DNA from: a bacterium
Lineage (GTDB): Bacteria; Verrucomicrobiota; Verrucomicrobiia; Verrucomicrobiales; Akkermansiaceae
NCBI GenBank assembly: GCA_018222765.1
Contig: JAAEZT010000001.1
Span: 269,462 to 333,461, forward strand
Length of the DNA: 64,000 nucleotides
Reading direction: 5' to 3'
Both the position numbers and the translations under genes were made by a program. Below the pieces are notes generated by a model that saw only the letters and a program-made list of their open reading frames with translations, had not been told where the DNA came from and ran no database searches. Below, piece by piece: positions 5,598 to 9,916 of this stretch. Every line of letters begins with the position of its first letter. Position 1 is the first letter of the stretch.

Positions 5598-6008
5598 TCA
5601 TTCAGCCCAAGACCAAGCAACCCGAACATCGATATCCGGATGGATACTGTGATGCACGGGACAGTTTAACGCTCCCTGCACAAGCGCTTCTTTATCAGGG
5701 TGATCTTCACTGACCGGCACATCGATCTGAAGATGCAAAGCCGATACTCTTCGAGGTAAATCCGAGGACATTTCCTTCTCCACCACGATCTTCATTCCAA
5801 CCAAATCAATTCCTTTTTGATCCGCAACAATTCCCATGATCGTGGCCATACAAGTTCCCAGAGCCGTCGCGACAAGATCGGTAGGAGAATAACTCTCACC
5901 CCTCCCCTTGTTATCCACCGGAGCATCGGTCTCGAGGGCACTCGATGAAGGTCCGTGTTGCGCCACGCAGCGAAGCTGCCCGTCGTAGTTAATTTTAATT
6001 TCCACCAT
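5598..6008 (-). CDS. OsmC/Ohr-family protein
   Basis: SPTDLVATALGTCMATIMGI and ALNCPVHHSI: the two OsmC cysteine motifs. Confidence 0.88.
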   Translation of the reverse strand: MVEIKINYDGQLRCVAQHGPSSSALETDAPVDNKGRGESYSPTDLVATALGTCMATIMGIVADQKGIDLVGMKIVVEKEMSSDLPRRVSALHLQIDVPVSEDHPDKEALVQGALNCPVHHSIHPDIDVRVAWSWAE

Positions 6009-8634
6009 TGTCTTTTTCAGTTTCGTCTTTTTCTACTTCAATCAATTCTTCCAACGACTCGCGCGCAAGAACTACTCTGAAGCCATTGGTAATCCCACGC
6101 TCTTCGGGCTCCACGATATCGCGAAATCTCAACTCTAGATGATTCGGTTGGTAGCTTTTAAATCCTCCACCCCGCAAGACACCGTATACATCGCCTTCTT
6201 TGTATTGGTCGGAAACCCACTCGCGAACATTCCCGCCGAGATCGAACACACCCAAATTGTTCGCCTTGAATTTGCCAACCGGAGCCAGCAATTCAAAACC
6301 ATCATTGTAGTCCTCGATACTCTCATCGATAGGCGTGTATTCTCCGTCTGACGCCGTAATGTCCGCGTAGTTCCCAGATCGATCAGCAGGTGGCCAAATC
6401 AAGCCCCAAGGATATCGCCCCTCATTCACCAACTCTCCCTCTCGCAGGTAAGGAGCTTCTTTTTCCTCAATCAAGCCAACCATCCTACTCCACTCCGCGT
6501 CAGTGGGAAGCCGATAATGATCGCCCTCTTTAAGACGGGTCCCTTGCTCTGACTTGGTCAGCCATTCACAGAAGGCCTCGCATTCAGCGCGATTGACATT
6601 AGACACCGGAACTTCCTTGTTATCATCAATCGCGAATTGCCAGGAAGGTTCGGAATTCGCGATCACGAATTTGGCAAACTCATCGCTTTTCGTCCATTGC
6701 TCGAAGTCGCCACTGCGGGTTTCCCAAATGCAGACCATGAGATCCTCACCCTCTCCAAGCGGAACAAACTTCATCTCCAAGCTGTTAGACCATGGTTGAT
6801 CCCATTCCACACTGGCATCTTTTTTGAGTTTCTCGTCGACTTTCTCTTCCCCCTTATCCTCCAATACAGGATTCACCGTTCGACTCTCGTATCCGTCGAG
6901 CTCCAAGATCACATCAACCTGTCCGGGAGGAACCGAACCTTTCCACGGAGTGATTCCTTCGTATCGCCCATCGATAAAGACGTCTGCCCCCGGCGGATCG
7001 GAAAACACTTCCAGAATCGCGTAGGGAATCACCCTAACTTCACACTGGAATGGATACAGTCCAGCCTCCCTCGCTTGCTTGCTGAGAAGCTCGACCGGAA
7101 AACTGTGACCATAGTCGGAGACAAACTCACGGTTTCCGGCGAAGTCTTTTTCCTCGACCAACCCTTCCTGCAAAAAACCCTCCAGAATCGCCTTCTCAGT
7201 CAACCATTCAGCATACCTTGCGGCGCTTTCCTCGGAAACGGCCACGATGTCACGAATCCGGCCACCATCTGTGGAGCGGAAAACATGGGGCTTCAATTTC
7301 GGATCCTTCAGATTTGGATCAAGTTCCCGCTGAAAGATCGCCCACTCTGTGATCCCAACATGGGCACTTTTATGGCTATCGTTTTCCGGGAGGTATTTCA
7401 CACCCAGCGGCCCCATCCATACCTCGTCTTTCTCGGGAGGAGAACGCTCCATCTCCCCCGTGACAATCATCGAGAGCGATTGATCATCATTATTTACCAC
7501 GATCTCCAGAGGCAGGTCATGAAATCCTTTCTTCCGTAGGACCAGGCGCACTACTTCGTGCTCCTCCCGAAGCAAACTGAATTGGGTCACTCCCAATGCT
7601 TCACCAGTCAGAGCATCGTATACCGGCACCTGATCCGGTTTACTGAGAATCTTCACATTCACTACACTGGGAGGCATCGGCTCTCCTTCGACCACAAGAG
7701 TCCCCCAAGTTTTCTCCAGCCAAATACTCCACCCAAGGACCGCTCCGATCGTTAAAATCAGCAATGCCGGAACAAGAATCGGTGAAACTTTCTTCTTAAC
7801 ATTTTTCCCTTCCTCCAGGCGCGCCAGGGCCGAGGCCAGTTCCTCCCCAGTCTGGATCACACGCTTGGAAATTCGCGGCTCGCAGATATCGCAAATGATC
7901 CGATTCAAGCGAATCCACTTCTTACGCTGCTCTTCCGGCGGACCTTCTTCGGGTAACTCGGGAAACTGAAGTCGATCCATCCCGGTCACCATTTCGTAGA
8001 GTACTTTCCCCAGACTATAAATGTCAGCCTGTTCCGAACCCGGACCCTCCGGCGGCACGAACCCTTCAGTCCCCACGAAAGTCCGTTGATCGGTCGTCGC
8101 CACCAAGCCGACATCCGCCAGCTTGGCCTTGCCCTCCACAAAAATGACATTCGACGGTTTCACATCGCGGTGGGTCAATCCACGCGCATGCAATTCGGCC
8201 AACGCCTCCGCTAAAATCCGCCCGGTCTCAACACAGAAATCAGTATCTAGAGGATGCCCATCCGCCCGCTTGGTATCGGTCCGCAAGGTCCGCGGTTCAT
8301 ACTCGACCAAATTGATCTCACCCTCGGAATGAGCGTCGTCGCCCAACTCCATCACGTAGTAATAAAAGGGCGAGGCCCCATCGGACCGACCAACGTGCAG
8401 GACATTCACGAAGCCCGGGTGGTCTCGGGAGATCGGTTCAAATTTCAGAATCCCCTGAAATTCCCGTTCAAAAGTCCGGTCGTCGCTGAAGTCTTCGCGA
8501 TAGACCACCTTGACCGCACGCATCGCTCCGGTGACACCACGAGCGAGCCATACCTCGCCATAAGATCCGCCTCCGATCTTTCGGAAGACTTCATGATCCG
8601 GAATGATCGGATCAGGCCTGATCTTTTTTTGCAT
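5995..8634 (-). CDS. Membrane Ser/Thr protein kinase with PEGA repeats and C-terminal formylglycine-generating-enzyme (SUMF1)-like domain
   Basis: GGGSYGEVWLARG, AVKVV, THRDVKPSNVIF, ADVGLV, GTEGFVPPE; one TM segment; PEGA-like stretches; YRLPTDAEWSRMVG...GNVREWVSDQ...VLRGGGF. Confidence 0.9.
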   Translation of the reverse strand: MQKKIRPDPIIPDHEVFRKIGGGSYGEVWLARGVTGAMRAVKVVYREDFSDDRTFEREFQGILKFEPISRDHPGFVNVLHVGRSDGASPFYYYVMELGDDAHSEGEINLVEYEPRTLRTDTKRADGHPLDTDFCVETGRILAEALAELHARGLTHRDVKPSNVIFVEGKAKLADVGLVATTDQRTFVGTEGFVPPEGPGSEQADIYSLGKVLYEMVTGMDRLQFPELPEEGPPEEQRKKWIRLNRIICDICEPRISKRVIQTGEELASALARLEEGKNVKKKVSPILVPALLILTIGAVLGWSIWLEKTWGTLVVEGEPMPPSVVNVKILSKPDQVPVYDALTGEALGVTQFSLLREEHEVVRLVLRKKGFHDLPLEIVVNNDDQSLSMIVTGEMERSPPEKDEVWMGPLGVKYLPENDSHKSAHVGITEWAIFQRELDPNLKDPKLKPHVFRSTDGGRIRDIVAVSEESAARYAEWLTEKAILEGFLQEGLVEEKDFAGNREFVSDYGHSFPVELLSKQAREAGLYPFQCEVRVIPYAILEVFSDPPGADVFIDGRYEGITPWKGSVPPGQVDVILELDGYESRTVNPVLEDKGEEKVDEKLKKDASVEWDQPWSNSLEMKFVPLGEGEDLMVCIWETRSGDFEQWTKSDEFAKFVIANSEPSWQFAIDDNKEVPVSNVNRAECEAFCEWLTKSEQGTRLKEGDHYRLPTDAEWSRMVGLIEEKEAPYLREGELVNEGRYPWGLIWPPADRSGNYADITASDGEYTPIDESIEDYNDGFELLAPVGKFKANNLGVFDLGGNVREWVSDQYKEGDVYGVLRGGGFKSYQPNHLELRFRDIVEPEERGITNGFRVVLARESLEELIEVEKDETEKDNGGN

Positions 8635-9331
8635 CCTTCTCGAGCTTGGCCAATTCCTTCTTCAACACCGCGCCGACGCGATGCTTGGCAAGGTATACCT
8701 GAGCCATGCTGACTCCAAGGTGATCCTGAACTTTTTTCGCGTCCCACTGCTTAATTACATAGTAATCAAAAATCTGATACTGTTTCGGCGAGACTTGGGC
8801 CTTCACCTTGGTGAGAGCCATGTCTGCAATATTCTTCTGCCACTCCACGCTCCACATCCGCTCGAGAAGATCTCCCTTGGGATCCTCAAATCGATCAATA
8901 ATCGCGGTCTTGCGGTCGTCCTCCCATCCCCCTCCGGGCATTGCGGTATCCTTCTTTCGCTTTCGAAACTGATCGTTGATGCGCCAGCGCGTCATGTTCA
9001 TGAGCCAAGTCTTGAAGGAACCCTGTTTGGGATCATAGAGATTCTTCTTACTCTGCTTGGCAATAGAGAGAATCGTCTCCTGCACCACATCAAAGGCCTC
9101 GTCCTGACGCAATCCGGCTTTGATTCCCACCGAGTAAATGAGCTTCCAGTAGGTTTGATAAAATTCTTCCCACGTCCGCTGATCCTCCCAATTCTCCAGG
9201 CGCGCAATCAGGCTCTTGCGGGTCTTGGCGTAACCGGAAGTCATATCCACTTCCCTGCTCTTCTTCGCTGCTTTTTTAGTCGCTTTCTTCGCCACTTTTT
9301 TCGCTGCTTTCTTGGTCGGTTTGCCAGCCAT
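8612..9331 (-). CDS. ECF-like RNA polymerase sigma factor with Lys/Ala-rich N-terminal tail
   Basis: Region 2 (EAFDVVQETILSIAKQ...GSFKTWLMNMTRWRINDQFRKRKK), region 4-like WDAKKVQDHLGVSMAQVYLAKHRVGAVLKKEL; tail MAGKPTKKAAKKVAKKATKKAAKK. Confidence 0.88.
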   Translation of the reverse strand: MAGKPTKKAAKKVAKKATKKAAKKSREVDMTSGYAKTRKSLIARLENWEDQRTWEEFYQTYWKLIYSVGIKAGLRQDEAFDVVQETILSIAKQSKKNLYDPKQGSFKTWLMNMTRWRINDQFRKRKKDTAMPGGGWEDDRKTAIIDRFEDPKGDLLERMWSVEWQKNIADMALTKVKAQVSPKQYQIFDYYVIKQWDAKKVQDHLGVSMAQVYLAKHRVGAVLKKELAKLEKDAKKDQA

Positions 9332-9445
9332 TGGGGGAACTATAGGCGAGTCCGAGCAAGGCGAAAGTCTTTCCTCTCTCTTAAATATCTCAAAAAGAGT
9401 GCAAGATTTGTAAATTGTTGGACTGAGCTGCTTTGCGCGTCGGGA

Positions 9446-9916
9446 TTAGTCGGACAAGTCCCCAAAAACATGCGCAATTAGCCCTTCCAGTTGGCTTTGA
9501 TCCACTTCATCGAAGTTTCCCAAAACCTCAGAATCAACGTCCAGAACCGCGATCAGCCGCCCTTCGGCATTTTTTACCGGAATGACAATTTCACTCTGCG
9601 ATCGGGCATCACAGGCAATATGCCCCGGAAATTCATGCACATCCCGCACGATCTGGGTTTCTCCGGTCTCCGCTGCCGTGCCACAAACGCCTCGTCCCAA
9701 GGCAATCCGCAAACATCCCACCGAACCCTGATAAGGACCGATCACGAGCTCTTCACCAACCACCCGGTAAAATCCCGTCCAGAAAAAGCCCGCCATTTCC
9801 GAGTGCAATACCCCGATTACCGAGGCCATCAAAGCAATCTCGTCCGTCTCCCCCTCACAGAGCACCCGCACCTTCTCTCGACACCGCTCGTAAGACGCTA
9901 ATTTCTCCGCGTTCAT
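9446..9916 (-). CDS. msrC: GAF-domain free methionine-(R)-sulfoxide reductase-like protein
   Basis: FWTGFYRV, GPYQGSVGCLRIALGRGVCGTAAETGE, HIACDARSQSEIVIPV: fRMsr-type cysteine arrangement. Confidence 0.85.
   Translation of the reverse strand: MNAEKLASYERCREKVRVLCEGETDEIALMASVIGVLHSEMAGFFWTGFYRVVGEELVIGPYQGSVGCLRIALGRGVCGTAAETGETQIVRDVHEFPGHIACDARSQSEIVIPVKNAEGRLIAVLDVDSEVLGNFDEVDQSQLEGLIAHVFGDLSD

Follow-up and report, generated by a model that had tools for sequence, protein, structure and literature searches.

A conserved pair of an ECF sigma factor and a receptor-type kinase in the Verrucomicrobiales, a candidate for an autoregulated circuit

In a 64,000-nucleotide stretch of DNA from a bacterium of the Akkermansiaceae (the whole stretch analysed is referred to as the window), an ECF sigma factor and a transmembrane receptor-type Ser/Thr kinase are encoded next to each other. 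The pair is conserved and has been lost jointly, the kinase active site and the core-binding residues of the sigma factor are intact, and, in relatives, a promoter-like element is largely confined to the sigma operon. We consider it somewhat probable that the two proteins form an autoregulated, kinase-controlled ECF sigma circuit that mainly drives its own operon; from these observations we infer that the element is read by this sigma factor and that the sigma factor is acted on by the kinase, and likewise the phosphosite, the direction (activation) and the signal.

The locus comprises four genes on the minus strand, i.e. an msrC-like gene for an fRMsr-type GAF protein (9446-9916), the gene for the ECF sigma factor (8612..9331; 239 aa), the kinase gene (5995..8634; 879 aa) and a gene for an OsmC-type protein (5598..6008; 136 aa); all window features described below are also on the minus strand. 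The arrangement given in an earlier sequence-only reading, including the overlaps of 23 bp between the sigma stop and the kinase start (8612..8634) and of 14 bp between the kinase stop and the osmC start (5995..6008), was reproduced to the exact coordinate. The four gene identities proposed there were likewise borne out: the sigma factor matches TIGR02937 at 64.5 bits (cut-off 42.9) as well as Sigma70_r2 and is, by its sequence, a standard ECF factor; the kinase has Pkinase, PEGA and FGE-sulfatase matches; the OsmC-type protein matches OsmC at 51 bits; and the best solved relatives of the fRMsr-type protein in the PDB are 5hl6/YebR, its cysteines being kept as judged by inspection. Of 89 relatives, 64 also have the sigma stop running into the kinase start (median -11), so this overlap is more than chance. 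By contrast, the msrC-type gene is separated from the sigma factor gene by a 114-bp gap that contains the conserved promoter-like element. Therefore, the term "four-gene array" was too strong, and the tight packing comprises the three genes for the sigma factor, the kinase and OsmC.

We compared about 120 neighbourhoods and 80 named loci from Roseibacillus, Luteolibacter, Haloferula, Rubritalea and other Akkermansiaceae, and based adjacency counts on the 66 named loci whose downstream flank was long enough. In all 66, the gene directly 3' of the sigma factor gene is that of the kinase, and in 60 the kinase gene is followed by osmC; a conserved sigma-kinase-OsmC order is found, but osmC is separable from the pair. 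Sigma-kinase adjacency also occurs in other families and in other classes of the Verrucomicrobiota, and in these other classes the kinase domain is the sole part of the adjacent kinase that is still recognisable. The flanking genes vary by genus (dnaX, DEAD helicase/ruvC, HPF and flavoprotein genes), and therefore the conserved order of the pair exceeds genome-wide synteny. No anti-sigma gene was seen adjacent to the sigma factor gene in the window, and its neighbours vary between genera. An msrC-type gene was present near the sigma factor gene in 14 of 64 loci, which by the gene maps are all from the genus of the window, and msrC was therefore ruled out as a member of the module. At L049:1374-3336 and in about 26 loci of the family from several genera, a divergent two-gene cassette is located head-to-head with the sigma factor gene; it encodes a larger protein with a Pro-rich N terminus and a smaller coiled-coil protein, neither with a confident Pfam or NCBIfam match, and has no counterpart in the window.

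Of the 289 genomes examined from the Verrucomicrobiales, 269 encode the sigma factor (E<=1e-20), mostly in a single copy. Among 149 genomes of the family (>=90% complete, <=5% contaminated), and with the kinase scored as absent where no hit reached an E-value of 1e-30, both genes were present in 136 and both absent in 11, while two were discordant, G100 having only the kinase and G166 only the sigma factor (Fisher p=1e-14, a figure that ignores the relatedness of the genomes). In the Akkermansia lineages in which linkage was checked, the two genes are unlinked and separated by as much as about 1 Mb; in the A. muciniphila type strain (G119), they are at 101 kb and 1,812 kb in 2,664,102 bp, i.e. 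about 950 kb apart. On a clpX tree built from 30 Akkermansia genomes, all four loss clades (G168; G128/G186/G188/G192; G172/G184; G136) are common to the sigma factor and the kinase, which random placement equalled in 24 of 20,000 trials. We cautiously conclude that Akkermansia lost the two genes jointly on three to four occasions or more, with three as the safe count because backbone support is weak at some clpX nodes. In total, the adjacency in 66 of 66 loci and the joint losses uphold the earlier suggestion of a functional sigma factor/kinase pair without a visible anti-sigma gene. Genomes without the pair retain osmC, and Akkermansia as well as some further genera have it at an unlinked position, which rules out OsmC as an obligate component.

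Two further observations concern A. muciniphila. In the A. muciniphila clade, a PAS-PAS-SpoIIE phosphatase gene follows directly after the sigma factor gene (L100:2567-4204), and the phosphatase itself is conserved genus-wide; it was considered as the antagonist and ruled out, since genomes that lost both genes keep it and G147 has it at an unlinked position. At the unlinked kinase locus (L101:4309-10873), the preceding gene resembles, by eye, glycine C-acetyltransferase, and a second large Ser/Thr kinase is encoded shortly downstream.

The kinase consists of an N-terminal kinase domain (residues 16-220, 7975..8589; PF00069 at 77 bits, Foldseek matches to PknB/Aurora folds), a predicted transmembrane helix (residues 286-304, 7723..7779; hydropathy 2.33, helix 287-306 in the model), a PEGA domain (residues 540-584, 6883..7017; PF08308 at 38.1 bits) and an FGE/SUMF1-like C-terminal domain (residues 662-855, 6070..6651; PF03781 at 81.9 bits). 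In an alignment of 37 kinases, the catalytic residues K42, D157, N162 and D174 are invariant and the DFG motif reads DVG/DIG; judged from these residues, the Hanks-type active site is intact and catalytic activity is predicted. A search of the window kinase with domain profiles detected no anti-sigma domain. No conserved Cys, and hence no cysteine pair of formylglycine-generating enzyme (FGE), was found in the C-terminal segment in the kinase alignment, and a catalytic FGE role of the C terminus was rejected. The nearest solved relatives of this domain are PorK/GldK, which are FGE-fold proteins without enzyme function; while these are secretion-ring lipoproteins, the domain here forms the extracytoplasmic end of a kinase and is presumably a sensor. 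Lacking the cysteines of the enzyme and being similar to PorK/GldK, the domain would fit a ligand-binding role better than a catalytic one. A Foldseek search with the full AF2 model (mean pLDDT 85.7, pTM 0.52) returned kinase-domain matches only, and therefore the ectodomain fold rests on sequence. Right after the kinase domain, at residues 248 and 251 (window about 7882-7893), a C-x2-C motif is nearly invariant, except in Akkermansia, where C251 is changed to Ala.

The system resembles the ECF43 pairs EcfP/PknT of Vibrio parahaemolyticus and EcfK/PknS of Xanthomonas citri (PMC8999054, PMC13147305) in that an ECF sigma factor without an anti-sigma gene is encoded beside a transmembrane Hanks-type kinase. 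ECF43 members lack the acidic sigma-2.2 motif and carry in its place one with a Thr that is phosphorylated (PMC8999054, PMC13147305); EcfK is also controlled via a linker Thr, T106 (PMC13147305). By contrast, the verrucomicrobial sigma factor keeps E78/D81 and QE: the acidic residues of the window protein (E78..D81..Q84 E85) are intact, and E78 is kept in 84 and D81 in 83 of 86 kinase-linked sequences. Position 80, the third of DAED, is Phe in 67 of the 86 and Trp in 9/9 Akkermansia sequences. An ECF43-type phosphosite was rejected, since the acidic motif is kept and position 80 is mostly Phe. Because the sigma-2.2 charges are present, the charge-restoring mechanism of ECF43 cannot apply to the verrucomicrobial sigma factor, and any phosphosite in the sigma factor would putatively lie outside the sigma-2.2 acidic patch. 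The two systems also differ in the PEGA/FGE-like ectodomain of the verrucomicrobial kinase and in osmC as the third gene.

A comparison of kinase-linked with kinase-unlinked sigma paralogues for a Ser/Thr present only in the linked ones yielded no clean site. In the linker between sigma2 and sigma4, position 142 of the kinase-linked sequences carries Thr in 76 of 86, and 9/9 Akkermansia sequences have Glu there. However, of the 13 kinase-unlinked paralogues, one of which (L098) counts as unlinked only since its contig ends, 11 carry Thr as well. Thr142 is, from its conservation, a candidate phosphosite and no more. In L228-L236 (family f4, which includes V. spinosum), each genome carries two sigma paralogues; a kinase gene usually lies 190-260 bp downstream of one of them, and the other has none. 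V. spinosum, for which Tn5 and deletion tools exist (PMC12283558), has the adjacent pair at L231. The N terminus of the window sigma factor (9260-9331) is a Lys/Ala-rich, histone-like tail; the closest relatives have it, L088 has a similar one, and it is otherwise unconserved.

ECF groups other than ECF43 that are associated with Ser/Thr kinases (STK) keep a DAED-like motif (PMC8999054). They include ECF59, ECF61, ECF62, ECF217 of planctomycetes and ECF283, for which kinase control has been predicted from gene neighbourhood (PMC8999054), as it is here. The verrucomicrobial locus shares their general features, i.e. an adjacent Hanks-type kinase conserved across genomes and no anti-sigma gene at the locus, and is assigned to no particular ECF group. 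No description of an ECF-kinase pair from Akkermansia or other Verrucomicrobiota was found in the literature searched. The sigma-kinase circuit is probably of the STK-associated ECF kind, which is already known, and within that kind differs from ECF43 by the intact sigma-2.2 charges and the PEGA/FGE-like ectodomain.

The motif GAAAGAC, a candidate -35 element (9367..9373 in the window), occurs upstream of the sigma factor gene in 65 of 107 unique regions from relatives, with 3.3 expected from shuffling, and the full GAAAGAC-N16-GKTA in 41 of the 107. Genome-wide in 16 genomes, the strict pattern gave 11 matches, 10 of which are directly upstream of the sigma factor gene, while a reversed-pattern control gave 20 scattered matches. 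Where strict matches occur, the sigma ATG follows 11-12 nt after GKTA. The strict pattern was found neither in the genome of the window nor in its three sampled congeners, and several genera lack GAAAGAC upstream of the sigma factor gene. In the window, TATAGT (9339..9344) is a possible -10 element; it is uncertain because its spacing, 22 nt past GAAAGAC, is unlike the N16 of relatives. A looser pattern gave 41 matches compared to 65 for the control; the 12 sigma promoters among them are conspicuous. Of the other matches, those examined are mostly inside open frames, with no conserved extra target seen. Because the element is placed at the sigma factor gene and is rare, while a housekeeping element would be frequent, we infer that it mediates autoregulation of the sigma operon. 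A degenerate, wider sigma regulon is possible.

The sequence-only reading had described the locus as redox-sensing, i.e. a phospho-switch in which the kinase and the sigma factor control the repair of oxidative damage by MsrC and OsmC. In favour of this reading, Cys53 and Cys116 of OsmC are of the catalytic type and invariant in 55/55 sequences, osmC is the third gene at most loci, and the neighbouring fRMsr-type gene keeps its cysteines. However, msrC is adjacent in a single genus and beyond the promoter-like element, OsmC is kept without the sigma-kinase pair, and the ectodomain shows no pair of conserved cysteines in the kinase alignment. Moreover, the motif search in 16 genomes, which degenerate sites would escape, found matches essentially at the sigma operon only and none at promoters of peroxide or other oxidative genes, giving no sign of the oxidative regulon that had been suggested. 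A redox signal or an oxidative regulon is unsupported by these sequence comparisons and we regard the redox switch as improbable; the operon may nevertheless have OsmC as an optional output.

Two other explanations retain the pair and dispense with phosphorylation of the sigma factor. The kinase could control the sigma factor as a membrane anchor or in an anti-sigma-like manner, or via an unlinked protein such as one in a SpoIIE-type phosphatase pathway. With the acidic core-binding motif intact, a phospho-switch that restores charge is not needed, and in the A. muciniphila clade the PAS-SpoIIE phosphatase gene is next to the sigma factor gene. We consider such control unlikely given the invariant catalytic residues of the kinase, the behaviour of the phosphatase, which is kept without the pair and unlinked in G147, and the lack of a detected anti-sigma domain. 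Alternatively, the two genes might merely be co-transcribed, the kinase having its substrates elsewhere, e.g. among envelope or division proteins, and the sigma factor being controlled by its own transcription. ECF groups controlled by transcription only exist (PMC8999054), some sigma paralogues have no kinase neighbour, and outside Akkermansia the sigma factor is far more conserved between genera than the kinase (72-95% versus 40-55% identity). Against this, physically unlinked copies were repeatedly lost together and adjacency is order-wide despite changing flanks, making mere co-transcription rather improbable.

We therefore favour the autoregulated, kinase-controlled circuit. In it, the membrane kinase would receive an envelope or extracellular signal via its PEGA/FGE-like extracytoplasmic, putatively ligand-binding part, and its cytoplasmic Hanks-type domain would activate the ECF sigma factor translated along with it, in the simplest case by phosphorylation outside the sigma-2.2 acidic patch, e.g. 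in the linker between sigma2 and sigma4. The activated sigma factor would drive mainly its own operon, sigma-kinase-osmC, resulting in positive feedback; OsmC would be a linked passenger or an optional output, and msrC would be outside the circuit. The acidic motif, intact unlike that of ECF43, the absence of the strict promoter pattern from the genome of the window and its congeners, the lack of GAAAGAC in several genera, the two discordant genomes and the presence of Thr142 in unlinked paralogues count against this circuit.

A more far-reaching version, which we advance only tentatively as having a small chance of being correct, is that the sigma factor is a kinase-gated, order-wide core regulator that is phosphorylated outside sigma-2.2, e.g. 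at linker Thr142, which would be permanently Glu in Akkermansia, and that acts at essentially one promoter as a self-reinforcing switch with the operon's own products as the readout. Cultured members of the Verrucomicrobiales include Akkermansia muciniphila and Verrucomicrobium spinosum. The Akkermansia lineages without both genes provide natural comparisons, and the candidate promoter element is suited to a reporter assay. Kinase control of ECF sigma factors has been shown experimentally mainly for ECF43, and with this near-universal, single-copy pair a second mechanism by which kinases may control ECF sigma factors could be put to the test.
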